Origin: Cryptosporangium phraense
GTDB lineage: Bacteria > Actinomycetota > Actinomycetes > Mycobacteriales > Cryptosporangiaceae
Direction: 5' to 3'
DNA: 64,000 nucleotides
Assembly: GCF_006912135.1 (NCBI RefSeq)
Contig: NZ_VIRS01000003.1
Coordinates: 372,001 to 436,000, forward strand
Shown here: positions 45,147-61,685 of the stretch, piece by piece
Layout: every line of letters starts with the position of its first letter
Numbering within the stretch: the first letter of the stretch is position 1
Notes under the pieces: generated by a model
The model's database searches: none
What the model was told of the DNA's origin: nothing
Seen by the model: the letters and a program-made list of their open reading frames with translations, nothing else
Program-made: the position numbers and the translations under genes

Positions 45147-45229
45147 GTCCGGGTGGCGGAATGGCAGACGCGCTAGCTTGAGGTGCTAGTGCCCGAAAGG
45201 GCGTGGGGGTTCAAGTCCCCCCTCGGACA
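45147..45229 (+). tRNA. tRNA-Leu (anticodon GAG)
   Basis: The acceptor arms GTCCGGG and CTCGGAC pair fully, allowing one G-T pair. The anticodon stem CTAGC/GCTAG carries the loop TTGAGGT, with anticodon GAG decoding CUC. The long variable arm (GTGCCCGAAAGGGCG) is that of a class II tRNA. The T-arm is GTGGGGGTTCAAGTCCCCC. The discriminator base is A and CCA is not encoded. The 3' end is part of the att core 45221-45234, where the integrative element sits. Confidence 0.95.
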
Positions 45230-46404
45230 CAATCATGCACACGGCTTTCGGGCCGTGCTTCGGCCGTGACGCTCTTCCGGCCAGGGTGGTACGTCATCTC
45301 CAGGTTCAGACTCCGGTAGACGCGCATGCGGTCGATGGGGTCTGCGTTGAGCAGCACGGCCCGGATGCCACCTAAGGCGCTGACCAGCGAATCTATTTCC
45401 TCGGTGGTCATCCGCTGACGGCCGCTCAACTCGCGGATCTTCGCCTCGGCCTGGACACGTTCGGCCTGGACTTCGGCCGTCCACTGCTGGATGAGAACGG
45501 CGTCGGTGCCTGCTTCGAGCGCGGCGCGGTAGCGCTGGAGTCGCTGTCCGCACGACTGGATCGTTTCCCTGGCAGCAGCGAGCGCCGCATCGTCCGCGTC
45601 ACTGCGCTGAGACTCGCTAATCGCGGTAAGTGTCTCGGTCAGGCGTGCGGGTGCGAACGCTTGGGCGAGCCACTCGTCGACCGGGCCGGCGAGGGCGTCC
45701 TCTCGGAGGTAGAGCGCCTTCGGGTGCTCGACGTGGTTCGCTGCGGCGTAGTCGCCGGGATAGCGGCACCGATAGTGCGGGCGGTCGTGGTTGAAGTTGC
45801 CCTGCATGACGCGCCCGCAGAGGCCGCACCGGATCATGCCCGCAAAGAGGTAGGTCCGGTGCGTCGTGCGGGTCTTCCTGACTCCGGGTCGCTTCGCGCC
45901 GGCGGCGACGAGCATCTGCACGCGCTCGAATGTCTCCGGGCTGATGATCGCCGGGTGTGTCGGCTTGGCGGAGTGGACCCAGGCGCCTTGGTCGTTCCAG
46001 CGCATCTTGGTCTCGTGGCCGAGAGCGACGTCCTCGACGTCGATCAGTACCTCGTCTTTACGTTGCTTGTTCCAGACCTCGCGACCGGTATACCGAGGGT
46101 TCAGGAGGATCACGCGGACCGCGGACTTGCTCCAGGCGATGCCGCTCCGGTGGCTGTTGCGCGCTCGGTCGTGGGCAGATGGGCACGGGATGCCGTCCCG
46201 CGTGAGTCCCTGCGCGATGGCGTAGAAGCCGCTGCCGTCGAGGAACTCGGCGTAGATCCGCTGGACGACGGGTGCGGCGAGTGGGTCGATCTCCAGCACG
46301 TGGAGCCGCTTACCGTCGCCGGCCTTGGCGGGATTGGGGTGTGGTCCGGCGTCGCCGAGCCGGTAGCCGTATGGCGGGCGCCCGCCGAGGTATCGCCCCG
46401 GCCG
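45211..46404 (-). pseudogene. Large serine recombinase (integrase), 5'-truncated
   Basis: The recombinase domain and C-terminal domain of a large serine integrase are intact. They begin at GRYLGGRPPYGYRLGDAG and include the zinc ribbon CGLCGRVMQGNFNHDRPHYRC and a coiled coil (AARETIQSCGQRLQRYRAAL to AEAKIRELSGRQ). The gene ends DCVRGGT inside the tRNA 3' end. The ~150-residue N-terminal catalytic domain with the active-site serine is missing. At about 46400-46405 the homology changes abruptly to the FtsK-like gene in another frame, although the frame stays open to 46479. It is therefore catalytically dead. It stands directly beside the att site, as an integrase should. Confidence 0.9.
45221..45234 (+). 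other. Left att core (tRNA-Leu 3' end)
   Basis: CCTCGGACACAATC spans the last 9 bases of the tRNA and 5 bases beyond. The identical sequence is at 59596-59609. Confidence 0.88.
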
Positions 46405-47779
46405 CGTCGAGGGTGTGTGCGTTCCATCCAGCGGCGAGCATGCCTTGTCCGAGGACCAGATCAACGTCTCGGCGCTCACAGACGCGGAGGCAGATACGAA
46501 CGTCCATCTGCGAGCGGACAGCGCCGTTACCCATCGCGTCCTGTGTCGGCCTCTGCGTCGCGGCGAGCAGCGTCACCGCAGGCGCACGTCCTCGCCTGGC
46601 GAGCGAGTCGGCGTAGCGGAGTGCTTCGTCGTCAAGTTCGGCGTACTCATCGACGACGATCACCAGCGCCGGCCGGTCGTGCGAGGGTTCCCAGACACGT
46701 GCGCCGCGCCGGGCGAGATCAGCGGCGCGTGCGTCGAGGACGCGGACGGCATCGGCGAGCAGCTCGGCGGCGTCGCCTGGCGTGGTAGCGAGCCGGTCGA
46801 GGCAGCGTCCCCACGGCTGTAGTTCCATGCCGCCCTTGAGGTCGATGCCCCAGAGCACGACGTCCCGACAGCCCGTGAGGATCGCGAGGACGACGTTTAG
46901 TACTCCGCTCTTGCCGGAGCCGGCCACACCACCGATGAGGCCATGCCGACGCAGCAGCGAGACGCGCACCGGGCCGGCGTCCTCGTAGATGCCGAGTTCG
47001 GCGGGCTCATTGATGCTGCGCGCCGTGCCCCCGGGCCAGGGCAGCGGCTCGGCATGCGGATCGCGGTTGAGAACGCGCAGCAGCACGTGATCGGCGCGGT
47101 GTGGGTCGGCCTCGATCCGGAGCGCACCCGGCCGAGTGCCGAGCCCGGATTCGAGCGCTGGTAGGCGGTTGAGCGCATCAGCAACGGTCTGCCCCTTGCG
47201 AAGCGCGATGCGGGCTCGCCACCCCCACGCATCGACAAGCGCTGACATCACCCGTGAACCGGCGAGCCCGACCTGTTCGCCGACCTCTGGCCATGCCTCC
47301 AGAGTCCGCTCGACCTGGACCCGAGCGCGGCGCCGTCGGTGCCACCACCACGGAACCCCGGCCACGATCGTGCCGAGTCCGAGAACCTTGGGCAGCGGTC
47401 CGGCGCCCGGTCCGTAGACGGTCGCGAGTACCACCCAGGTACCGGTGGCGAATACGACGCCGGCCGCGTAGGCGCGTTCGATCAGTCGCGGCAGCCAACG
47501 CCGACCGAGCCAGGCGACGGCTGCCGTACCGAGGACCGTGGCGACAATAAGGCCGGGCCACCAACCCGGGTGCCTCGTATGCAGGAAGAGCGCGACGAGT
47601 CCGGCCGTAGCGGCGAGTGCGAAGGGTGCGAGTTCGGATCGGTACCGAAAGAGGATCCGTCCGGCGGCGGCGAGTCCGGCGCCTGGATACGGCTCGTCGA
47701 TAAGTACGACCGGCGCGGTCCGAGTGCCGTACCGGCGGCGGAGTTGCCGACGAGCGCGGCGGTAGTCGCGGCGCCTCAT
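46310..47779 (-). CDS. FtsK/TraB-like DNA translocase of the element, 3'-truncated and fused out of frame (489 aa)
   Basis: Two or three membrane helices lie in the N-terminal 150 residues (FALAATAGLVALFLHT; GLIVATVLGTAAVAWLG). The ATPase domain has Walker A GGVAGSGKSG at about 283-292 and Walker B LVIVVDEYAE near 370. It belongs to the FtsK/SpoIIIE-type Tra proteins that move double-stranded AICE DNA. Homology continues to LGQGMLAAGWNAHTLDA (about residue 463) and then stops. The remaining ~26 residues (Arg/Pro-rich) read through the serine recombinase gene in another frame. The C-terminal gamma (DNA-recognition) domain is therefore missing. ATG 47779 overlaps the upstream small gene by ATGA. 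Confidence 0.88.
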   Translation of the reverse strand: MRRRDYRRARRQLRRRYGTRTAPVVLIDEPYPGAGLAAAGRILFRYRSELAPFALAATAGLVALFLHTRHPGWWPGLIVATVLGTAAVAWLGRRWLPRLIERAYAAGVVFATGTWVVLATVYGPGAGPLPKVLGLGTIVAGVPWWWHRRRRARVQVERTLEAWPEVGEQVGLAGSRVMSALVDAWGWRARIALRKGQTVADALNRLPALESGLGTRPGALRIEADPHRADHVLLRVLNRDPHAEPLPWPGGTARSINEPAELGIYEDAGPVRVSLLRRHGLIGGVAGSGKSGVLNVVLAILTGCRDVVLWGIDLKGGMELQPWGRCLDRLATTPGDAAELLADAVRVLDARAADLARRGARVWEPSHDRPALVIVVDEYAELDDEALRYADSLARRGRAPAVTLLAATQRPTQDAMGNGAVRSQMDVRICLRVCERRDVDLVLGQGMLAAGWNAHTLDAAGAIPRRAPAIRLPARRRRTTPQSRQGRRR

Positions 47780-49381: not shown

Positions 49382-50119
49382 ATGGCAAACGAGCGGCTGC
49401 GGGCAGCACTGTTAGAGCAGGGATTGACCCCCGACAGCGTCGCCGCGGTGGCCGGCGTCGATCCGAAGACCGCGGAGCGCTGGGTCACCCAAGCGCGCAT
49501 TCCCTACCGGCGCCATCGGTACCTCGTCGCTGCGCTGCTTAGGCTCGACGAGAACTATCTGTGGCCGGACGCGCTCACTCCTGAGCAGGCTGCGGACGCG
49601 TCGGAGAGCGAAATCGTCACGGTCTACCCGCACCGCTGGGCGGTGCCGCGTGATTCGTGGGGCCGGCTCTTCCGGACGGCCGAGAGCGAGATCAGCGTGC
49701 TGGTCTACGCAGGCACGTTCCTCGCGGACGACAACGGCATGGTGCGACTGTTCGCCGATAAGGCCGACGCAGGCGTCCGAGTCCGCCTCCTACTCGGCGA
49801 CCCGGACAGCCCGCACGTCGCGCAACGCGGCGCCGATGAGGGCATCGACGACGGGATGTCCGCCCGTATCCGTACCGCACTAGCGCTCTACCGGCCGCTA
49901 CGCAGCCGCGACAACGTCGAGATCAGCTTGCACGACACGACGCTCTACAACTCCATCTACCGGGCCGACGACGAGCTCTACGTCAACACCCACATCTACG
50001 GCTCACCCGCGGGCAACGCGCCCGTGCTCCACCTGCGCAAGGTCGCAGGGGGCAGCATGGTCACCACGTACTTGGAGAGCTTCGAACGCGTCTGGGCCGA
50101 GTCCCGTCGCGTCGAGTAG
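49382..50119 (+). CDS. HTH protein with PLD-like C-terminal domain (DUF5919; 245 aa)
   Basis: The N-terminal ~65 residues form an XRE-like helix-turn-helix (RLRAALLEQGLTPDSVAAVAGVDPKTAERWVTQARIPYRRHRYLVAALLRLDENYLWPD). The rest (VYPHRWAVPRDSWGRLFRTAESEISVLVYAGTFLADDNGMVRLFADKADAGVRVRLLLGDPDSPHV) resembles the PLD-like domain DUF5919. A full H-x-K-x4-D catalytic motif is not present, so it may bind rather than cleave. A close paralogue is at 53098. ATG 49382. It is divergent from the transfer operon and may repress it. The Nudix gene follows 21 bases later. Confidence 0.8.
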   Translation: MANERLRAALLEQGLTPDSVAAVAGVDPKTAERWVTQARIPYRRHRYLVAALLRLDENYLWPDALTPEQAADASESEIVTVYPHRWAVPRDSWGRLFRTAESEISVLVYAGTFLADDNGMVRLFADKADAGVRVRLLLGDPDSPHVAQRGADEGIDDGMSARIRTALALYRPLRSRDNVEISLHDTTLYNSIYRADDELYVNTHIYGSPAGNAPVLHLRKVAGGSMVTTYLESFERVWAESRRVE

Positions 50120-52510: not shown

Positions 52511-52963
52511 TCAGGGGGCCCGGACGAACCAGCCTCTGCCTTGGATCGACTCGACCAGGCCGGCCGTAGCCAGTTCGGCGAGGGCTTGGCGGGCGGTGCC
52601 TCGGGAGACGCCGTAGGTCATCGTCAGCGACGATTCGGACGGCAGATGAGCGCCGGATTTGTAGTCGCCTCGCTCGATCGCACCACGGAGGTCCGCGGCG
52701 ATGCGTCGGTAGGCCAGGCCGGGTGTCGAGTCCGCTCCAGGCGCCTTCACAATGCGTCCGCGCCCCGGCAGCGTCTCGATCAGCCCTTCGGACTCCAGAG
52801 CTCCTAGGGCGCGGCGGACCGTGTTGCGCACGACGCCGAACTCAGTACTCAGCGCGGCCTCGGACGGCAGAAGCGAGCCTGCGGAGAGTGTGCCGTCCGA
52901 CACCCGCCGACGAAGCACCTCGGCAATGTGGACGTACGCACGCCATGCGGTCGGTCGTCCCAC
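52511..52963 (-). CDS. GntR-type regulator made of two winged-helix domains (150 aa)
   Basis: Two GntR winged-helix domains follow each other: residues ~8-74 (AYVHIAEVLRRRVSDGTLSAGSLLPSEAALSTEFGVVRNTVRRALGALESEGLIETLPGRGRIV) and ~83-148 (LAYRRIAADLRGAIERGDYKSGAHLPSESSLTMTYGVSRGTARQALAELATAGLVESIQGRGWFV). There is no ligand-binding domain, unlike HutC/FadR/MocR proteins. Such tandem-wHTH GntR proteins are typical of KorSA-like regulators in actinomycete elements. GTG 52963. It is upstream of, and same strand as, the HD gene (20-base gap). Confidence 0.85.
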   Translation of the reverse strand: MGRPTAWRAYVHIAEVLRRRVSDGTLSAGSLLPSEAALSTEFGVVRNTVRRALGALESEGLIETLPGRGRIVKAPGADSTPGLAYRRIAADLRGAIERGDYKSGAHLPSESSLTMTYGVSRGTARQALAELATAGLVESIQGRGWFVRAP

Positions 52964-53040
52964 GCGCCTCGCCCTCTCGCTGCTTGTTCAGTGCCGTCCG
53001 AGTGTCTGGTACCTCATCGGACCTTTCCACTACGGAGAGG

Positions 53041-53097
53041 GACGTCTGGGGACGTCTTCTGTTAGCGTGCGATCGTCCCCTCACGCCCGGTGGAGGA
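53041..53097 (+). promoter_or_regulatory. Promoter region with two GACGTCT repeats
   Basis: GACGTCT at 53041 and 53051, exactly one helical turn apart, is followed by TAGCGTG (53063-53069). It matches the region before the paralogue at 49382. A further GACGTCT is at 53846-53852 downstream of the gene. Confidence 0.6.
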
Positions 53098-53823
53098 ATG
53101 GTGAACGACACGCTGCGGCGCGCGCTCGCTGACTCGCGTCTCCGAGACGTTGACGTCGCGTCTCGTTTGGGCGTCGATCCCAAGACTGTGCAGCGTTGGG
53201 TAGCCGGCCGCATCCCCCATGCTCGTCACCGTTGGGGGCTGGCCGACATGGTCGGCAAGCATGAGAACGATCTGTGGCCACACCTAGAGCACCTGGCCGG
53301 TGGAGCTTCGCAGGAGACGGTAGCGGTTTACCCCCATCGGGGTTCGGTCCCGCCGACGGTGTGGCGCTCGTTGTTCGGTGTCGCGCGTGATCGCATCGAT
53401 GTCTTGGTCTACAGCGGCTTGTTCCTCGTCGAGGACGTCGAGCTGATGCGCCTGATCACCTCGCGGGCACGCGCCGGCGTCCGGGTGCGAATGGCGTTCG
53501 GCGACCCGGACAGCCCCTTCGTGCGCTCCCGTGGCGCGGAGGAAGGCATCGACGACGCCCTTGGCGCGAAGGTCCGTAGCGCGTTGGTGCTCTGCCGGCC
53601 GTTGCTTGACGCGCCGAACGTGGAGATCCGACGGCACGCCACCGTCCTCTACAACTCGCTCTACCGAGCGGACGACGAGGTACTCGTTAATGCCCATGTC
53701 TACGGCGTCGGCGCGTCACATGCGCCCGTGTTTCACCTGCGCTCGACCGGGCCGGAATCGATGACCGCGACTTACCTGGAGAGTTTCGAACGAGTCTGGG
53801 CTATCGCGGAGCCCACGGTGTAG
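53098..53823 (+). CDS. HTH protein with PLD-like C-terminal domain, paralogue (DUF5919; 241 aa)
   Basis: It has the same architecture as the protein at 49382. The HTH is residues ~1-60 (NDTLRRALADSRLRDVDVASRLGVDPKTVQRWVAGRIPHARHRWGLADMVGKHENDLWP). The PLD-like part is VYPHRGSVPPTVWRSLFGVARDRIDVLVYSGLFLVEDVELMRLITSRARAGVRVRMAFGDPDSPFV. Both end with TYLESFERVWA. The two copies are clearly related but far from identical in the HTH. ATG 53098 is used; GTG 53101 is a close alternative to GGAGG. It probably binds the GACGTCT sites. Confidence 0.8.
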   Translation: MVNDTLRRALADSRLRDVDVASRLGVDPKTVQRWVAGRIPHARHRWGLADMVGKHENDLWPHLEHLAGGASQETVAVYPHRGSVPPTVWRSLFGVARDRIDVLVYSGLFLVEDVELMRLITSRARAGVRVRMAFGDPDSPFVRSRGAEEGIDDALGAKVRSALVLCRPLLDAPNVEIRRHATVLYNSLYRADDEVLVNAHVYGVGASHAPVFHLRSTGPESMTATYLESFERVWAIAEPTV

Positions 53824-55130: not shown

Positions 55131-56786
55131 TCAAACTATCTGAATGCGACACAGCGATGGGCGGACTTGACTGAGTCGCAGTCTCCTCGCGAAGTCGCGC
55201 AAATTCACTTTGCTGAATGTAGGCAAGTCATCTGGCAGGGACCGATTTTTCACATGCCCAATCGCGTAAGTGACGAACTTCGGTGTCGCCTCAGCAGTAG
55301 TGAGGAATGACGGATCCAGCTGTCGAACCGCCTCGTTGAAGTTCTTCCGGTAGATATTGTCGCTAGCCAACAGTTGAGCAGACACCAAGCCTTGTGAGAA
55401 CAGATGACTCAGCGTCTGACTCCCAGAGTATTTTTTGACATGGATAAGGTAGCCGTCTCTGTGAAGGAAATCGCACGACTCGACTTCATCACCGTCGCCA
55501 GGCCGGACGTCAACCGTGTCTAGGCAGAGTAGATCGGCCTTCGATACCTGTGCATTGTACTGAGTCTCCGACAAGTGCCTAGGCCAATCGGGGAGAGCAA
55601 GTATCGAAGTCACGTGGTCGATCTCGCTGAGATCGGAATTCAGTCGTTGCGTATAGTCCTCGTCTAGCGAGAACCATTTGCCAAGGGTCAAGATGTAGCG
55701 TGTATCGGCCGTTCCAACCTCAAATACGAGCCAGTCGCGGAGTGGCATCATTCCGCTTGCCGGCTCGCCGTCATCCCCGATGGCCATAAGCCGAACACTG
55801 CGGAGCGACGCCCGACCGTACCGTCCGCCCATGTTTCCGAGCGCTATTTCCAGCCCACTCAGCGATGCTGAATCGAGTACTTCGGATGCCCCATCCTCAT
55901 CCCTCCCGCGGAATATTTGCATATGATCTACGGTGTCCATATTAACTGAATCGGGAGGTGAGAACTCAAGCACGTACTCAGAGAGTTGTGCCAGTCTCTG
56001 GTCTTTGAGATGCCTACGTATTGATTGCGCGGAAGTTGGAAAAATCGCCGCAGCAAGCAGGGTCTCCAAATCCTCGACGAGAGGATCTTTCGACCGCAGC
56101 GGAACGAGCGCATCGACGAATTGAAGTTCCTCAGTGGGCTGAAGCCGTTCCACCTCTTCTAGCATAGATCTAAGCGCCTCGGCGATCTCGTTCAAGTTCG
56201 TCTCAGCTTTGAAGGCAATCGAGTCTGTGGCGATAAAGATTCCGCTTTCACCAATTTCAATTCCGTCTGAGTTGAGCCTTCCTGCGAGCTTTCGCACGAA
56301 CTCTCCGTCGAGCGGAACATCAAAGTCTCGTAGTCCACCGCCAAATGGTATTTGGACGGACTGAGTTCGGCTGGATGCACCGACACGACGGCTGCGAAAA
56401 TCGCTCAAACCGTCTGGTTCTAGCCGTCTCGCCGCGAACCTCAAGCCAAAGTTTGCCTCTACTTTCGCCCAATCGAGCGTAGAACTCCCGTAGCCGAAGC
56501 AGACAGCGAAGAATCTCCCGTCAACAGGCAAGAATATGACAAAACGATTTGACATATTCATCGCTTGGCTTAGCCCCGGGAAGTATTCAGCGAGCGCACT
56601 TGCCCATGGCGGGGATTTCTCCGACCGTGCGCGAAAATAGGCCACCATGCCAACTGGGGCGCTACCGGTTACGGGGAGGGGATCCATCGGTTGACTGCCG
56701 CCGGGGCGATACTTGGCACGCAGCGCAAGTACGGGCTCACTAAGTCCGTCACGAAGTAGATAGCAATTGAACCGAAGTTTTGCCAC
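55131..56786 (-). CDS. TIGR04141/DUF6119 family sporadically distributed protein (551 aa)
   Basis: The sequence matches the sporadically distributed family TIGR04141 (DUF6119). It begins AKLRFNCYLLRDGLSEPVLAL, has the middle block FAVCFGYGSSTLDWAKVEANFGLRFAARRLEPDGLSDFRSRRVGASSRTQS, and ends with FVTYAIGHVKNRSLPDDLPTFSKVNLRDFARRLRLSQVRPSLCRIQIV. The family is ~500-570 residues, often on mobile elements, and of unknown function. No nuclease or ATPase motif is obvious. GTG 56786 has GGGGGAG 4 bases before it and matches the usual N-terminus. GC is clearly lower than elsewhere in the window. The nuclease-like gene at 57310 lies upstream in the same orientation. Confidence 0.85.
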   Translation of the reverse strand: MAKLRFNCYLLRDGLSEPVLALRAKYRPGGSQPMDPLPVTGSAPVGMVAYFRARSEKSPPWASALAEYFPGLSQAMNMSNRFVIFLPVDGRFFAVCFGYGSSTLDWAKVEANFGLRFAARRLEPDGLSDFRSRRVGASSRTQSVQIPFGGGLRDFDVPLDGEFVRKLAGRLNSDGIEIGESGIFIATDSIAFKAETNLNEIAEALRSMLEEVERLQPTEELQFVDALVPLRSKDPLVEDLETLLAAAIFPTSAQSIRRHLKDQRLAQLSEYVLEFSPPDSVNMDTVDHMQIFRGRDEDGASEVLDSASLSGLEIALGNMGGRYGRASLRSVRLMAIGDDGEPASGMMPLRDWLVFEVGTADTRYILTLGKWFSLDEDYTQRLNSDLSEIDHVTSILALPDWPRHLSETQYNAQVSKADLLCLDTVDVRPGDGDEVESCDFLHRDGYLIHVKKYSGSQTLSHLFSQGLVSAQLLASDNIYRKNFNEAVRQLDPSFLTTAEATPKFVTYAIGHVKNRSLPDDLPTFSKVNLRDFARRLRLSQVRPSLCRIQIV

Positions 56787-57309
56787 GCGCTCCCCCGAGT
56801 CCGATCGGCCATCTAAGCTCACCGATCACGCAGTAGGACGAATCAGCGACACCGTGTGTGATTCTAGGGCCAATAGCGGCCCGAGGTATAGATGGCACGA
56901 AGGTATGAGGCGAATGTGCTTGACCGAGAGCGCGGACGAGAGCCTCTGCGGTGAGTGCCAGGGCTCGGACGTTAAGGCATCCCGGGCCTCATCGGCGGGC
57001 TGGTACCGCAGTACTCGGCAGCCCATGCCGTGCCCGCCGACCCACCCGGTGCTGGCCCGCCTGACGCCCGTATCCGTTCAAACAGCCGATGCGGCGACCC
57101 GCAGTCCTTATAGCTGGTTGGAAGCTTGCATATGCTGGTGTAGCTCTTAGGTCGGCCGTAGCGCGCGTCTCTAATCTCAAGCGACAATTCCGGGCATACG
57201 ATAGATGCCGGTGTGCTTATGGTCCGGCCCGACTCATGCGAATCGTTGTGGTGGATTCACCCAGCGGCGCGCCCTGCACGCCCGATAGTTCCTCCGCCGG
57301 CATCTTCGC
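56787..57309. other. Gap between the two low-GC genes, no gene called
   Basis: The region reads through several short frames without a recognisable protein. It separates two genes on the same strand, so the TIGR04141 gene likely has its own promoter here. No terminator or clear operator was recognised. Confidence 0.45.
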
Positions 57310-59445
57310 TCAGTCATCCTCTCTGCTGGCGAAGACCTCAATTTGATCAGCCAAGGCTCGTAGCCGACGGGCTATATTGCGGGGATCGTCGGCGATCGCG
57401 TATAGGATCTCCCGATTTTCGCCACGGACCTCGCGAGCGGCCGATATAGTTGGATGAGTAAGCAGATTTAGCTTTGCGACAATTTGCTCACTCGTGGGCC
57501 TGAACGGAAGGTCAGTAGAGCGCAGTGCAAAGCGAAGATTTGCGGGCGACGCGGACCCGCGAGCCTCTGGGTCATCTTCGGTAGCCTCACTCTGCAGGAC
57601 TGAAATGATCGCTGCTGTCAGAGCTAGGTCATTTTTTAGAGAATCGGCACTTTCCTGCAGTCCTGAGAGATTCGTTAAGCTCGGGTCGAACGCATTGCGG
57701 AGCTGGTGCAATGTTAGTGGCGTGCGGGAGTGTTCCTGAAGCAGGGACGATAGGTCTTCAATAGTGATCACCGCCATGCCGTTCGACGCGGCGGATTCCA
57801 TTACACTCTTCGGAAATTTTACTCCGACAACAGCCGCATAACTCGCGGCGTTCCGCTTCCGATGCCTCTTTATGGCCTCGAAGTTGATTTGTCCCTCCGG
57901 AACGGATCCTTGTGATGTGGACTTGACTTCAATGATCGCCGAATAGCGAGAGTCCGCTGGCAGATCGGCAGTTACTAGTACGTCGGTGTCACTTTGGCCG
58001 CTAATGTGCTTCGCCCGAAGTCCGAGCATTTCGAATGCATCCCGAACAGCGATTTCGAACTCTTTGTCCCGACTACCAATTGTGCCGAAAGTTTGCAAGC
58101 GATTCAGAATATCCTCGGTGGCGACCATCGACGGATCTCGTTCCTCTGATTCTGGGTCGTCCGCAGCCGCACCGTTAGAGCTTGTAGGAACAAGAGAACT
58201 CTCCTGCAATGGCAGCTCGCTTAACAGTTCCTCGCCGAGGGCTGTCAGTCTCGATCGAGATTTGTCAAACCTTTCGAGGAAGCCGCAATCTGCGAGAAGG
58301 GCGACTCTTGTTCGGATTTCGGAGTTTTCGCCACTGAATTGATAGCGAGATCGGGCTATCGCAAGCAGTTGAGAAGTCGACACAAGATCGCGAGATGCCT
58401 CAAGAAGTTCACCGATGAACGCAAATTTCGAGTGTAAGAAGCGGATCAGGTCTGCCTCGCGACCGACTGCTAAGCACGCGTATGCCAGCTCTGTTGGACC
58501 ATATTTGTTGTAAGCAATCAGTTCGATAAAGTCAAGGTGACGGAGAGAGTGAAGCATTGAATTAAAGGAGCCTGCGCCGACCCCTAGTTCCCGGTCAGCG
58601 CTATCGCGGAACTCGTCCACCGTTGCACCTACGTCGATGAGTCCTACAGCCTTTCTGAGTCCTTCTAGAGCTGTTAGCCGCGTCGCAACGGATCCGGAGG
58701 CAGAGCGGTTCGCGCCTCGGGGTATATATCCGATAGGTTCTTTCCGGTTAATCAAAGATGATGGTGTGATCGCCAGCAGTCGCTCCAATACCACGGTCGA
58801 CGCTTTTTGTACCGCGCTATTCGCCTTCGGATCAGACATGCTTTGACCCGCGGCCTCCTCACTTGTAGCAAGTGTTAGCTTGGCAAGGAGCGTACTGCCG
58901 GATTCTGTTAGAACGATTTTCCGACCCCAAATCTCGACCATTCCGAGGGAACGCAGCCAAGCCAATCGTCTGCGGATCGGGTCTTGCTTCTCCCATGAGA
59001 GTACGTACTTAGATCTTGCCGCTCGTAAGAGATCGGCCTGTGTCGTATTATCGCCGACTTCATTTAGAAGCTCACCAATAAACTTGCATTGATTATGCAA
59101 GTGAACTGCTAGAGCGGACCCGTTGGAAGTGTTGATGAACCATTGACGGGAAAATGCAGTCGGATGCCAGGCTTCTCCAATCCGAACCACGATGCCCATT
59201 GGAGACAGTTGTCGTCGGCACAGTTCGTCCGCAGAAGTCTCAATAGCTTCACCCATTGCGGTGGTTATCAAAAGATTGCTTTCACGAGCCGCTGGCAGTT
59301 GACCCAAGATCTGAACGAGACAATCTACTTGGAAGGTCGTCCCGCCTGGCAATATGCCAACCGTATTAGAGCGCTCGCTCCACGGCCTCGGGGAAGTGAT
59401 TTGAGGATCGTGCCGCTCTGCGGCATCCCCTTCGATTTCGGACAT
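57310..59445 (-). CDS. Large protein with duplicated winged-helix units and PD-(D/E)xK (Mrr-like) nuclease domain (711 aa)
   Basis: Two similar ~80-residue blocks lie at residues 111-190 (HLHNQCKFIGELLNEVG to IVLTESGSTLLAKL) and 331-410 (RFLHSKFAFIGELLEAS to RLTALGEELLSELPL). Each ends in a winged-helix-like segment. Between about 455 and 560 comes an endonuclease fold: EFEIAVRDAFEMLGLRAKHISG, then DTDVLV (Asp486/488) and IIEVKST (Glu506, Lys508), fitting the D-(x)n-E-x-K core of Mrr-type restriction enzymes. The C-terminal ~150 residues are helical. ATG 59445 has no strong ribosome site. GC is low for this genome. It sits directly upstream of the TIGR04141 gene at the right end of the element. 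Confidence 0.75.
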   Translation of the reverse strand: MSEIEGDAAERHDPQITSPRPWSERSNTVGILPGGTTFQVDCLVQILGQLPAARESNLLITTAMGEAIETSADELCRRQLSPMGIVVRIGEAWHPTAFSRQWFINTSNGSALAVHLHNQCKFIGELLNEVGDNTTQADLLRAARSKYVLSWEKQDPIRRRLAWLRSLGMVEIWGRKIVLTESGSTLLAKLTLATSEEAAGQSMSDPKANSAVQKASTVVLERLLAITPSSLINRKEPIGYIPRGANRSASGSVATRLTALEGLRKAVGLIDVGATVDEFRDSADRELGVGAGSFNSMLHSLRHLDFIELIAYNKYGPTELAYACLAVGREADLIRFLHSKFAFIGELLEASRDLVSTSQLLAIARSRYQFSGENSEIRTRVALLADCGFLERFDKSRSRLTALGEELLSELPLQESSLVPTSSNGAAADDPESEERDPSMVATEDILNRLQTFGTIGSRDKEFEIAVRDAFEMLGLRAKHISGQSDTDVLVTADLPADSRYSAIIEVKSTSQGSVPEGQINFEAIKRHRKRNAASYAAVVGVKFPKSVMESAASNGMAVITIEDLSSLLQEHSRTPLTLHQLRNAFDPSLTNLSGLQESADSLKNDLALTAAIISVLQSEATEDDPEARGSASPANLRFALRSTDLPFRPTSEQIVAKLNLLTHPTISAAREVRGENREILYAIADDPRNIARRLRALADQIEVFASREDD

Positions 59446-59595
59446 TAGGCGATGATATCCGAGCAGCACGGTGTATCGAGTTGTTAGTCGACGTTGTTGT
59501 CGCCCCCAGGGTGAAGGCGTGGCAGCCCACGCTGTTACACGAGGCCTATCTCTGCGGTCAACGCTAACAACCGTGTGCTCATGGTTCGGCTCGGT

Positions 59596-59609
59596 CCTCG
59601 GACACAATC
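59596..59609 (+). other. Second att core
   Basis: CCTCGGACACAATC is identical to the tRNA-Leu copy at 45221. It marks the right end of the first element and the left end of an older element relic. Confidence 0.85.
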
Positions 59610-60090
59610 CTTTAGCATGTGGCCTTCGGGCCTGGCTTGGGCCGTGACGATCTTCCGGCCGGGTGGTAGGTCGAATTCGTTTCAGACTCCGGTAGATCTG
59701 TGCCCGGGCGGCCGGGTCGGCGTCGATCAGGCTGCGGCGGATGCCGCCCAGCGCGTCTATCTCGTCGGTCGTCATCCGCTGGCGTCCGATCGGCTCTCGG
59801 CCTTCGCCTCTGCTTGCACGCGTTCGGCCTGGACTTCGGCGGTCCACTGCTGGACGAGTACGGGGTCAGTGCCGGCCTCCAGCGCAGCGCGGTACTGCTG
59901 GAGCCGCTGCCCGCAGGACTGGATCGCTTCCTTGGCTGAGGCAAGGGCAGCATCGTCGGTGTTGTCCTCCGCCTCGCTCAGGGCGGTGAGCGTCTCGGTC
60001 AGGTTGGCGGGTGCGAAATCCCCGGCCTCGGTGGTGGTTGCGGCCGTGATTGAAGGTGCCTTCATCGGCCGCGCAGCCCGCACCGCGCGC
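59597..60090 (-). pseudogene. Second serine recombinase relic (3' part only)
   Basis: Pieces in different frames match the C-terminal part of the recombinase at 45211. They include a zinc-ribbon remnant (TFNHGRNHHR), PANLTETLTALSEAEDNTDDAALASAKEAIQSCGQRLQQYRAALEAGTDPVLVQQWTAEVQAERVQAEAK, then in another frame RMTTDEIDALGGIRRSLIDADPAARAQIYRSL, and in a third VTAQARPEGHMLKDCVRG. At least three frame changes and a deletion after the zinc ribbon are needed. It ends at the att core as the first copy does. It belongs to an older, tandemly integrated element. Confidence 0.88.
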
Positions 60091-60475: not shown

Positions 60476-61264
60476 TCAGGGCTTGAACGCTACACCGCCG
60501 CTCATCTGCACGTTCACGTCCTCGGCCGCGGCGGCTGCTTCGTCGTCAGGCCGCCAGCGGTTGACCAGGACCACGCCGGGCTCGACGAGGTCCAGGCCCC
60601 GGAACAGGGCCCGCACTTCGTCGTCGGTACGAGGTTTGGCGGGAATTCCCCCTGACGTGTACCGCGCGGCGGCGGCGACTGCTTGGGGGTTGTGCGCGGT
60701 CACCGTCGAGATCGCCAGTGCGCTGCCCGGTGCGAGGGCGGTTAGGAGCGTGTCGACGATCCGGTGGGCCTCGGCCTCATCGGTGACGAACTGCAGGATC
60801 GCGATGAGGCAGAGCCCGACGGGTTTGCTCAGGTCGAGGGTGTCGAGCACCTCGGGCGACGCGAGGAGTCCTTCCGGGTTCCGCACGTCGCCGTCGAGGT
60901 AGGCGGTTCGGCCTTCCGAGGTCGAGGTGAGCAGCGCACGGGCGTGGACCGAGACGATCGGGTCGTTGTCGATGTAGACCACACGTGCGGTCGGATCGAC
61001 CTGCTGGACGACGTTGTGCAGGTTCGGCGACGTGGGTAGACCGGCGCCGATGTCGAGGAACTGCCGGACGCCCTGCTGTGCGAGGAAACGCGCGGCGCGG
61101 GCCATGTACGTGCGGTTGGCGCGCATCGAGATGGGCAGCCCGGGTGATGCCTCCAGGATCCGCGCGGCGGCGCTGCGGTCGGCGGCGAAGTTGTCTTTGC
61201 CTCCGAGCAGGTAGTCATAGACCCGCGCGGAATGCGGAACCTCGGAGTTGAGATCAACTGACAC
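60476..61264 (-). CDS. SAM-dependent methyltransferase, DUF574 family (262 aa)
   Basis: This is an actinobacteria-specific DUF574 (methyltransferase-19 type) protein. The N-terminal SARVYDYLLGGKDNFAADR motif, FLDIGAGLPTSPNLHNVVQ (motif I-like), VVYIDNDPIVSVHARALL and LDLSKPVGLCLIAILQFV match the family. The proteins occur in many copies in streptomycetes and their targets are unknown. GTG 61264 is used; no strong ribosome site is seen. It is the first ordinary chromosomal gene after the integrated elements. Confidence 0.88.
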   Translation of the reverse strand: MSVDLNSEVPHSARVYDYLLGGKDNFAADRSAAARILEASPGLPISMRANRTYMARAARFLAQQGVRQFLDIGAGLPTSPNLHNVVQQVDPTARVVYIDNDPIVSVHARALLTSTSEGRTAYLDGDVRNPEGLLASPEVLDTLDLSKPVGLCLIAILQFVTDEAEAHRIVDTLLTALAPGSALAISTVTAHNPQAVAAAARYTSGGIPAKPRTDDEVRALFRGLDLVEPGVVLVNRWRPDDEAAAAAEDVNVQMSGGVAFKP

Positions 61265-61685
61265 GAGAAGAACGTAGCCCACTGTCCATGGTGGCCGGAC
61301 TCTAGGCGGTGTCGATCCGGCCGAGCGCGGGCAGCGGCCCGAGGGTGTCCAGCATCCGGCGCACCGCGTCGTCAGATTCGTCCGCCACTCAGCCGCCGCG
61401 GGCAGCGCGATTGTCCACCCTCGGGCCGGCCGACGGCAGCACCGAGCGAGGAGTAGCGGCGTGATGTTCCCCGCGGCACGGGTCGTCTCGCATCCGGCGG
61501 GGTTGCGTTAGCCGAGCCGGTCCGGCCCTTCGGTCGGTCACCGACAGTAGCTTCCTGTCCGGTCTGCGAGTGCTGTCACGATCGCGTCGACAATTGGAAA
61601 TATTTACGTAATACTCATTAACGATTTGCCTCGCATGTGGACCTTCGCAGTGGATCGAACCGTTCTGCACGAAAGGACGTTCTCC
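61265..61685. other. Intergenic stretch
   Basis: A 28-codon open frame on the minus strand (61302-61388, VADESDDAVRRMLDTLGPLP onwards) looks protein-like and may be the tail of a lost gene. The A/T-rich 61590-61625 just before the glucanase gene probably holds its promoter. Confidence 0.4.

Follow-up and report, generated by a model that had tools for sequence, protein, structure and literature searches.

The described systems closest to the genes considered here include the anticodon nuclease PrrC, an ABC-type ATPase that also has a HEPN domain. The prrC gene is embedded within the EcoprrI type I operon (PMC3874165). Modification-dependent nucleases with winged-helix (wH) domains are recognised by Helbrecht et al. 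(PMC11037411) from the fact that no methyltransferase is linked to them. TIGR04141/DUF6119 is a named protein family of unknown function, and a literature search beyond whose coverage lay bioRxiv preprints and most subscription papers found no paper treating it; the sole mention of DUF6119 came from a wheat MADS-box paper. A member of this family and a 711-aa nuclease are encoded by two long open reading frames (ORFs) lying side by side on the minus strand of a 64,000-nucleotide stretch of Cryptosporangium phraense contig NZ_VIRS01000003.1, which we call the window. Both genes are carried as cargo by an integrative element at tRNA-Leu(gag), near its right-hand boundary. We consider it reasonably probable that this cargo end holds two independent defence-type genes, one for a type-IV-like nuclease and the other for an orphan member of a restriction-linked effector family.

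The first-pass annotation of this DNA had proposed that the pair works together, the TIGR04141 protein being partner or regulator of the nuclease, and had named a lack of recurrent pairing as the outcome that would refute it. Recurrent pairing was not found in the samples. A tblastn search (E<=1e-3) detected a nuclease homologue in none of 55 fetched TIGR04141 loci (L001, L027-L041, L070-L089 and L095-L113, with flanks of about 6-8 kb where the contig allowed), and TIGR04141 was present in none of ten nuclease loci (L022-L026 and L090-L094). Among 396 genomes of the phylum, 12 held TIGR04141 and 6 held nuclease homologues, and only the window's genome held both; the handles indicate that the same 396-genome sample underlies the two counts. 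Since about 0.14 further co-occurrences are expected by chance, this count speaks only against obligate pairing. Plasmids gave 24 records with TIGR04141 and 12 with nuclease homologues, none of them common to both. The closest relative of the window's TIGR04141 protein (~50%) and the only close one, that of Streptomyces actuosus, comes without a nuclease gene. The genes that do recur next to TIGR04141 are those of N6-adenine methyltransferases and of type I restriction.

This linkage to methyltransferases is the more interesting result, and it leads away from the nuclease as the partner. A search with HsdM, HsdR and HsdS references at E<=1e-6 detected Hsd homologues (type I restriction or N6-adenine methyltransferase) near TIGR04141, within the flank that was fetched, at 37 of 54 loci, or at 33 of 50 when the four loci that supplied the references are set aside. 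Some of the loci are short or lie at contig ends; L031 and L077, within both the 55-locus and the 54-locus sets, appear to be one plasmid, and the smaller set lacks L080, whose match to TIGR04141 fell short. The nearest Hsd match was on the opposite strand in 28 of the 37 linked loci, at a distance of 750 bp or less in 24 of these 28. Four of the 37 (L087, L089, L095 and L097) had only an HsdR match, about 3 kb away. The same references matched none of 30 control loci, which consisted of 20 arbitrary stretches of genus g8 (taken as Streptomyces) and the 10 nuclease loci, the latter not random. One control (L091) contains McrB and McrC, and another (L094) holds an N6_N4 methylase undetected by the Hsd references. 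Pfam scans of ten TIGR04141 neighbours gave N6_Mtase in six, Methylase_S in one more and no family in three.

The arrangement of the linked genes varies. On plasmids of Paracoccus, Mesorhizobium and Mameliella the order is S-M-S-TIGR04141-R-SprT, which places TIGR04141 between hsdS and hsdR; as hsdR is present in these three operons, TIGR04141 is unnecessary there as a restriction nuclease. In Streptomyces (genus g8), 38 of whose 295 genomes have a member of the family, TIGR04141 and N6_Mtase stand in divergent order. One class of Streptomyces loci combines McrB-McrC-UvrD, a degenerate methyltransferase and TIGR04141 in nine of nine cases (L073, L086, L088, L096, L098, L099, L101, L113 and L041, of which eight come from g8 genomes and one from a large plasmid); in L041 the McrB match is short and lies right where the stretch ends. 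The NPP[YF] motif is lost in the methyltransferase-like neighbour at these nine loci, four of which were aligned (DPPA or DPPV) and five scanned for the motif only. Some partner methyltransferases of TIGR04141 retain NPPY.

A tree of 53 TIGR04141 rows, from which fragments below 480 aa and L077 were left out and in which proteins above 620 aa were cut to their last 600 residues, required 7 changes of methyltransferase label as compared with a shuffled mean of 15.7, and 0 of 500 shuffles were as low. Methyltransferase-linked rows are spread over several distant clades, and they make up 28 of the 32 rows of the main actinobacterial clade. The window copy and that of Streptomyces actuosus form a separate, unlinked branch, and for the window copy neither an Hsd neighbour nor a linked DNA methyltransferase was found. 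These results show a frequent genetic link between the family and N6-adenine methyltransferases or type I operons and, for a part of it, McrBC.

Further copies of TIGR04141 without an Hsd match in the flank were seen in viral DNA. A Pseudomonas phage carries one immediately next to an integrase (L117:5524-8205), and two are on viral contigs (L115 and L116) that were found by a degenerate motif pattern; scans of viral contigs with single proteins found no relative. The phage and viral-contig copies are likely to be accessory defence genes of prophages. Within genus g8, several copies (in G446, G499, G615, G618 and G678) have an internal stop or are in pieces, which suggests frequent decay of the gene, assembly errors being also possible.

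The 711-aa nuclease contains two internal repeats, as had been noted earlier. Residues 116-195 and 337-416 align with 40% identity over 81 columns (E=9e-11), and the alignment scores 45.4 bits where 100 shuffles reached a maximum of 26.2. We name the repeats winged-helix-turn-helix (wHTH)-type after Pfam HTH_45, whose cut-off is exceeded in two relatives. They are followed by a FokI/Mrr-like PD-(D/E)xK domain and a further C-terminal region. In the window nuclease and five homologues from Actinomycetota and Bacillota, E464, T487-D488 and K508 are invariant, and position 506 is D or E in all six rows. The first-pass reading of a duplicated wHTH-type repeat with a nuclease core is supported, but of the residues it named (D486, E506 and K508) the Asp is off by two: the invariant one is D488, not D486. 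A profile of the six sequences matches FokI (2fok, E=5.5e-4), with the core motif aligned on GGSRKPDG...VIVDTK, the D...DxK of FokI. From its conserved D...(D/E)xK core, the 711-aa protein is predicted to be a PD-(D/E)xK nuclease. Its score against Mrr_cat (PF04471) is below the gathering cut-off (15.2 vs 21 bits, E=0.024), which was passed by four of nine relatives scanned. A single-sequence structure model (pLDDT 39) was too poor for a fold test and was not used.

EVE is a family of modified-base readers. Three relatives carry an N-terminal EVE domain above the Pfam cut-off ahead of the same nuclease module (L091:6245-8107, L092:817-2703 and L093:6734-8626, the first near McrB/McrC homologues), and these EVE-wHTH-Mrr/FokI-like fusions are, judged by their domains, probable modification-dependent restriction enzymes. 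The Pfam scan of the window nuclease found no EVE or PUA match. Another relative (L094:5273-8952) has a GHKL ATPase in front of the same module and the N6_N4 DNA methylase gene behind. On Gordonia plasmid p174 (L022:1218-8100), a nuclease homologue lies beside TnsA-like, Mu-transposase-type and AAA-ATPase genes and is possibly Tn7-like cargo; on one plasmid a homologue adjoins an ABC-three-component system, and others occur on staphylococcal plasmids. The genes a few kb from the S. saprophyticus homologue are for DNA-alkylation repair and not for DNA-base methyltransferases, and no DNA-base methyltransferase is annotated in the flanks of five homologues on plasmids, the PLSDB tables being incomplete.

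The genome of the window has one match to N6_Mtase, two to DNA_methylase and one to N6_N4_Mtase, all on other contigs, and the window's own contig has no match to these three profiles. Elsewhere in this genome, on a different contig, HsdM, HsdS and HsdR homologues adjoin one another. Within the window, 60476-61282 is a methyltransferase ORF of Methyltransf_19, a family not known to be directed at DNA. The 711-aa nuclease thus stands alone, with no linked DNA methyltransferase, as type IV restriction enzymes do. By the mark that Helbrecht et al. (PMC11037411) use, the nuclease would be type-IV-like and the GHKL-fused relative would not.

The assignment of the second protein to TIGR04141/DUF6119 was confirmed. 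Over nearly its whole length it matches TIGR04141 (E=1e-100, 337.7 vs a cut-off of 35 bits) and PF19614 DUF6119 (E=3.3e-126, 422.4 vs 27 bits), the latter being its only Pfam match. With residues counted from GTG 56783, the invariant positions of the family in 33 sequences include E406, D422, E435, D438, K450, H460 and Q464, and the window copy keeps all of these. They fall in the motifs E406xxYN, D422, E435xxD438, IHVK450 and S459H460LFxQ464, in the order of an E in a helix, the D and ExxD in strands, hhVK, and a helix with SHxxxQ. Such an order resembles a PD-(D/E)xK core, a putative assignment whose chances we put at about even; the acid of (D/E)-x-K is replaced in the family, mostly by His (H448 in the window copy). 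An AlphaFold2 model from four sequences (pLDDT 58, pTM 0.50) has, at low confidence, the alpha-beta-beta-beta-alpha-beta order that would match such a core. Foldseek with this model against PDB and BFVD returned nothing at E<=0.001; XPF/ERCC4 and PD-(D/E)xK entries within the noise were not used as evidence. A profile of the C-terminus matched none of the alignments it was compared with (Mrr-like, HsdR N-terminal and methyltransferase), and this comparison was without power because the positive control (Mrr-like vs HsdR) failed too. Hits to VRR_NUC in 2 of 60 genomes and to Shedu in 4 of 119 were not enough to build reference profiles.

The coordinates of the features are collected in the table below. 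The two long genes were confirmed to be low in GC, with 53-59% across 55-60 kb against 65-79% in the rest of the window, apart from 58% at 51-52 kb. Two starts are given for the TIGR04141 gene because residue 18 is the first that its Pfam and TIGRFAM matches cover. The gap between the genes contains no credible gene: the frame read has stops, and the gap is overlapped only by two mechanical ORFs of 85 aa and 127 aa, both on the opposite strand. Its length argues against a tight operon. A promoter and terminator scan of the locus remained at chance level, and the PADLOC profiles of defence systems (2023) included no family matching either protein at E up to 1. The tRNA gene and the att-like repeats support the first-pass placement of the genes in the terminal cargo of an integrative element; the defence-type context is supported as well. 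Within one mismatch, CCTCGGACACAATC occurs at only two sites in the window (0.03 expected), and with up to two mismatches there was no further match in the next 19 kb. The nuclease gene starts about 150 bp inside the right repeat. A serine-recombinase part at the 3' end of a tRNA gene is unusual. The Pfam matches of the recombinase ORF include no catalytic domain at the N-terminus, which may mean that the element is defective, and the remnant of a second recombinase past the right repeat suggests tandem accretion of elements; the ORF and the remnant probably represent tandem, defective elements. The element also encodes two similar helix-turn-helix (HTH)-type proteins (49382-50119 and 52723-53823) whose genes share a DNA repeat, the first matching DUF5919. 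TIGR04141 was not found in the three other genomes of the window's genus in the collection.

Table. Features of the tRNA-Leu(gag) element and its cargo; coordinates are those of the window
Feature	Coordinates	Strand	Remarks
tRNA-Leu(gag)	45147-45230		
Left att-like repeat	45208-45234	plus	Inside 3' end of tRNA-Leu(gag); 14-bp core CCTCGGACACAATC at 45221-45234
Serine-recombinase-type ORF	45211-46479	minus	Recombinase and zinc ribbon domains; adjoins left att-like repeat
FtsK/SpoIIIE-type translocation protein of the element	46310-47779	minus	Beside left att-like repeat
TIGR04141/DUF6119 gene	55131-56822	minus	563 codons; start at GTG 56822 or GTG 56783
Putative PD-(D/E)xK-like core of TIGR04141 protein	55134-55700	minus	C-terminal 189 residues; conservation in 21-33 sequences
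Intergenic gap	56823-57309	none	487 bp; 526 bp if TIGR04141 starts at GTG 56783
711-aa nuclease gene	57310-59445	minus	ATG at 59445; ORF spans 57310-59847
Right att-like repeat	59583-59609	plus	14-bp core CCTCGGACACAATC at 59596-59609
Remnant of second, related recombinase C-terminus	59595-60017	minus	Past right att-like repeat; 54.5% amino acid identity over 154 columns

How could two such genes work at one element end? The gene contents, the internal and att-like repeats, the absence of pairing in the samples and the link of the family to methyltransferases are observed, whereas we infer the nuclease activities, the modification dependence and the effector role of TIGR04141. In our preferred reading the two genes would act independently. 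The tandem winged-helix-type domains of the nuclease would bind DNA, probably modified or otherwise foreign, and its FokI/Mrr-like domain (D488, E506 and K508) would cut the bound DNA. A modification-dependent, type-IV-like mode appears most likely because no DNA methyltransferase is linked and EVE is present on three relatives. The TIGR04141 protein would be a DNA-directed effector of methylation-based defence, acting via its probable PD-(D/E)xK-like C-terminal nuclease, and the window copy would have to work without a linked methyltransferase. Several points weigh against this reading. No Hsd match was present at 17 of the 54 TIGR04141 loci, among them Rhizobium plasmids and L001, which is of the window's own lineage. 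The PD-(D/E)xK assignment of TIGR04141 is unmatched in all database and fold searches, and H448 stands in place of the usual acid. On the side of the nuclease, tandem wHTH domains with a FokI-like domain could instead be sequence-specific, the modification dependence being a matter of domain kinship, and the N6_N4 methylase behind the GHKL-fused relative tells against all members of the nuclease family acting alone. As to independence, Streptomyces actuosus is one sample only, joint acquisition of the adjoining genes is possible, and a diverged nuclease could be missed, as the GHKL-fused relative was unseen by tblastn at E<=1e-3; because a very diverged nuclease could escape the search, the partnership is unsupported rather than disproved. 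A single two-gene module, in which the nuclease senses modified DNA with TIGR04141 as its partner or regulator, would account for two adjoining genes on one strand with similar low GC at the same element end. We nevertheless regard it as very unlikely, given that no set examined contains a recurrent pair, that nuclease homologues were found without TIGR04141 and TIGR04141 with different recurrent neighbours, and that the gap is at least 487 bp.

The role of the TIGR04141 family invites two further explanations. TIGR04141 could be a latent, PrrC-like second-line toxin guarding restriction, silenced by a methyltransferase or an Hsd complex and freed when a phage inactivates restriction. It lies inside the type I operon on three plasmids much as prrC does in EcoprrI (PMC3874165), the presence of hsdR in these operons means that it is not needed there as the restriction nuclease, and some partner methyltransferases are without NPP[YF]. 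For the window copy, the guarded system would then be a different one, perhaps the type I system, not linked to it, whose HsdM, HsdS and HsdR homologues lie together on another contig of the same genome. We think this explanation unlikely, as TIGR04141 matches no toxin or ATPase family and solitary phage and plasmid copies exist, and the silencing and toxicity are putative. Alternatively, TIGR04141 could be the restriction endonuclease of a divergent methyltransferase/nuclease system, with solitary copies that are modification-dependent or decayed. The divergent order with N6_Mtase in Streptomyces and the partner methyltransferases that keep NPPY are in its favour, but HsdR is also present at other loci, motif IV is degenerate in at least nine partners and solitary copies would be toxic, so that we doubt this explanation as well. 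Of the two roles, a guard or back-up effector held by a methyltransferase and a nuclease that cuts as one half of a divergent restriction-modification pair, the former is slightly favoured because HsdR is co-resident and methyltransferases are degenerate. A broader proposal, which we put forward tentatively and hold to be somewhat unlikely as a whole, is that TIGR04141 is an unrecognised family of methylation-defence effectors. The protein would be a nuclease or toxin whose PD-(D/E)xK-like site is missing its second acid, tethered genetically to type I operons, to McrBC and to N6-adenine methyltransferases that are often catalytically degenerate; it would serve as guard or back-up when restriction is neutralised, and solitary copies on phages and integrative elements, the window copy among them, would be freed effectors. 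The neighbourhoods make a restriction-linked effector a testable idea for this family, with a probable partner and key residues. If TIGR04141 does guard type I or methyltransferase systems, it would be a second, unrelated example beside PrrC.

Compared with known systems, the TIGR04141 protein of the window is a regular member of its family in that it scores far above both cut-offs and retains all invariant residues, whereas its branch, shared with Streptomyces actuosus, is unlinked and the main actinobacterial clade is largely linked (28/32). The likeness to PrrC of EcoprrI lies in the embedding of TIGR04141 in a type I operon on three plasmids; the window copy differs in that it is outside such an operon, its sole Pfam match is DUF6119 and its toxicity is putative. 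The 711-aa nuclease resembles FokI/Mrr-type PD-(D/E)xK nucleases in having winged-helix-type domains and a D...(D/E)xK core, but it is unlike them in its two long tandem repeats, its extra C-terminal region, its Mrr_cat score below the cut-off and the absence from its surroundings of a linked methyltransferase. With the modification-dependent (type IV) endonucleases that have winged-helix and EVE/PUA domains (PMC11037411), it shares the combination of winged helix and nuclease, its stand-alone position in the window and, in three relatives, the EVE domain; it differs from them in having no EVE/PUA match of its own and an activity that is predicted only.

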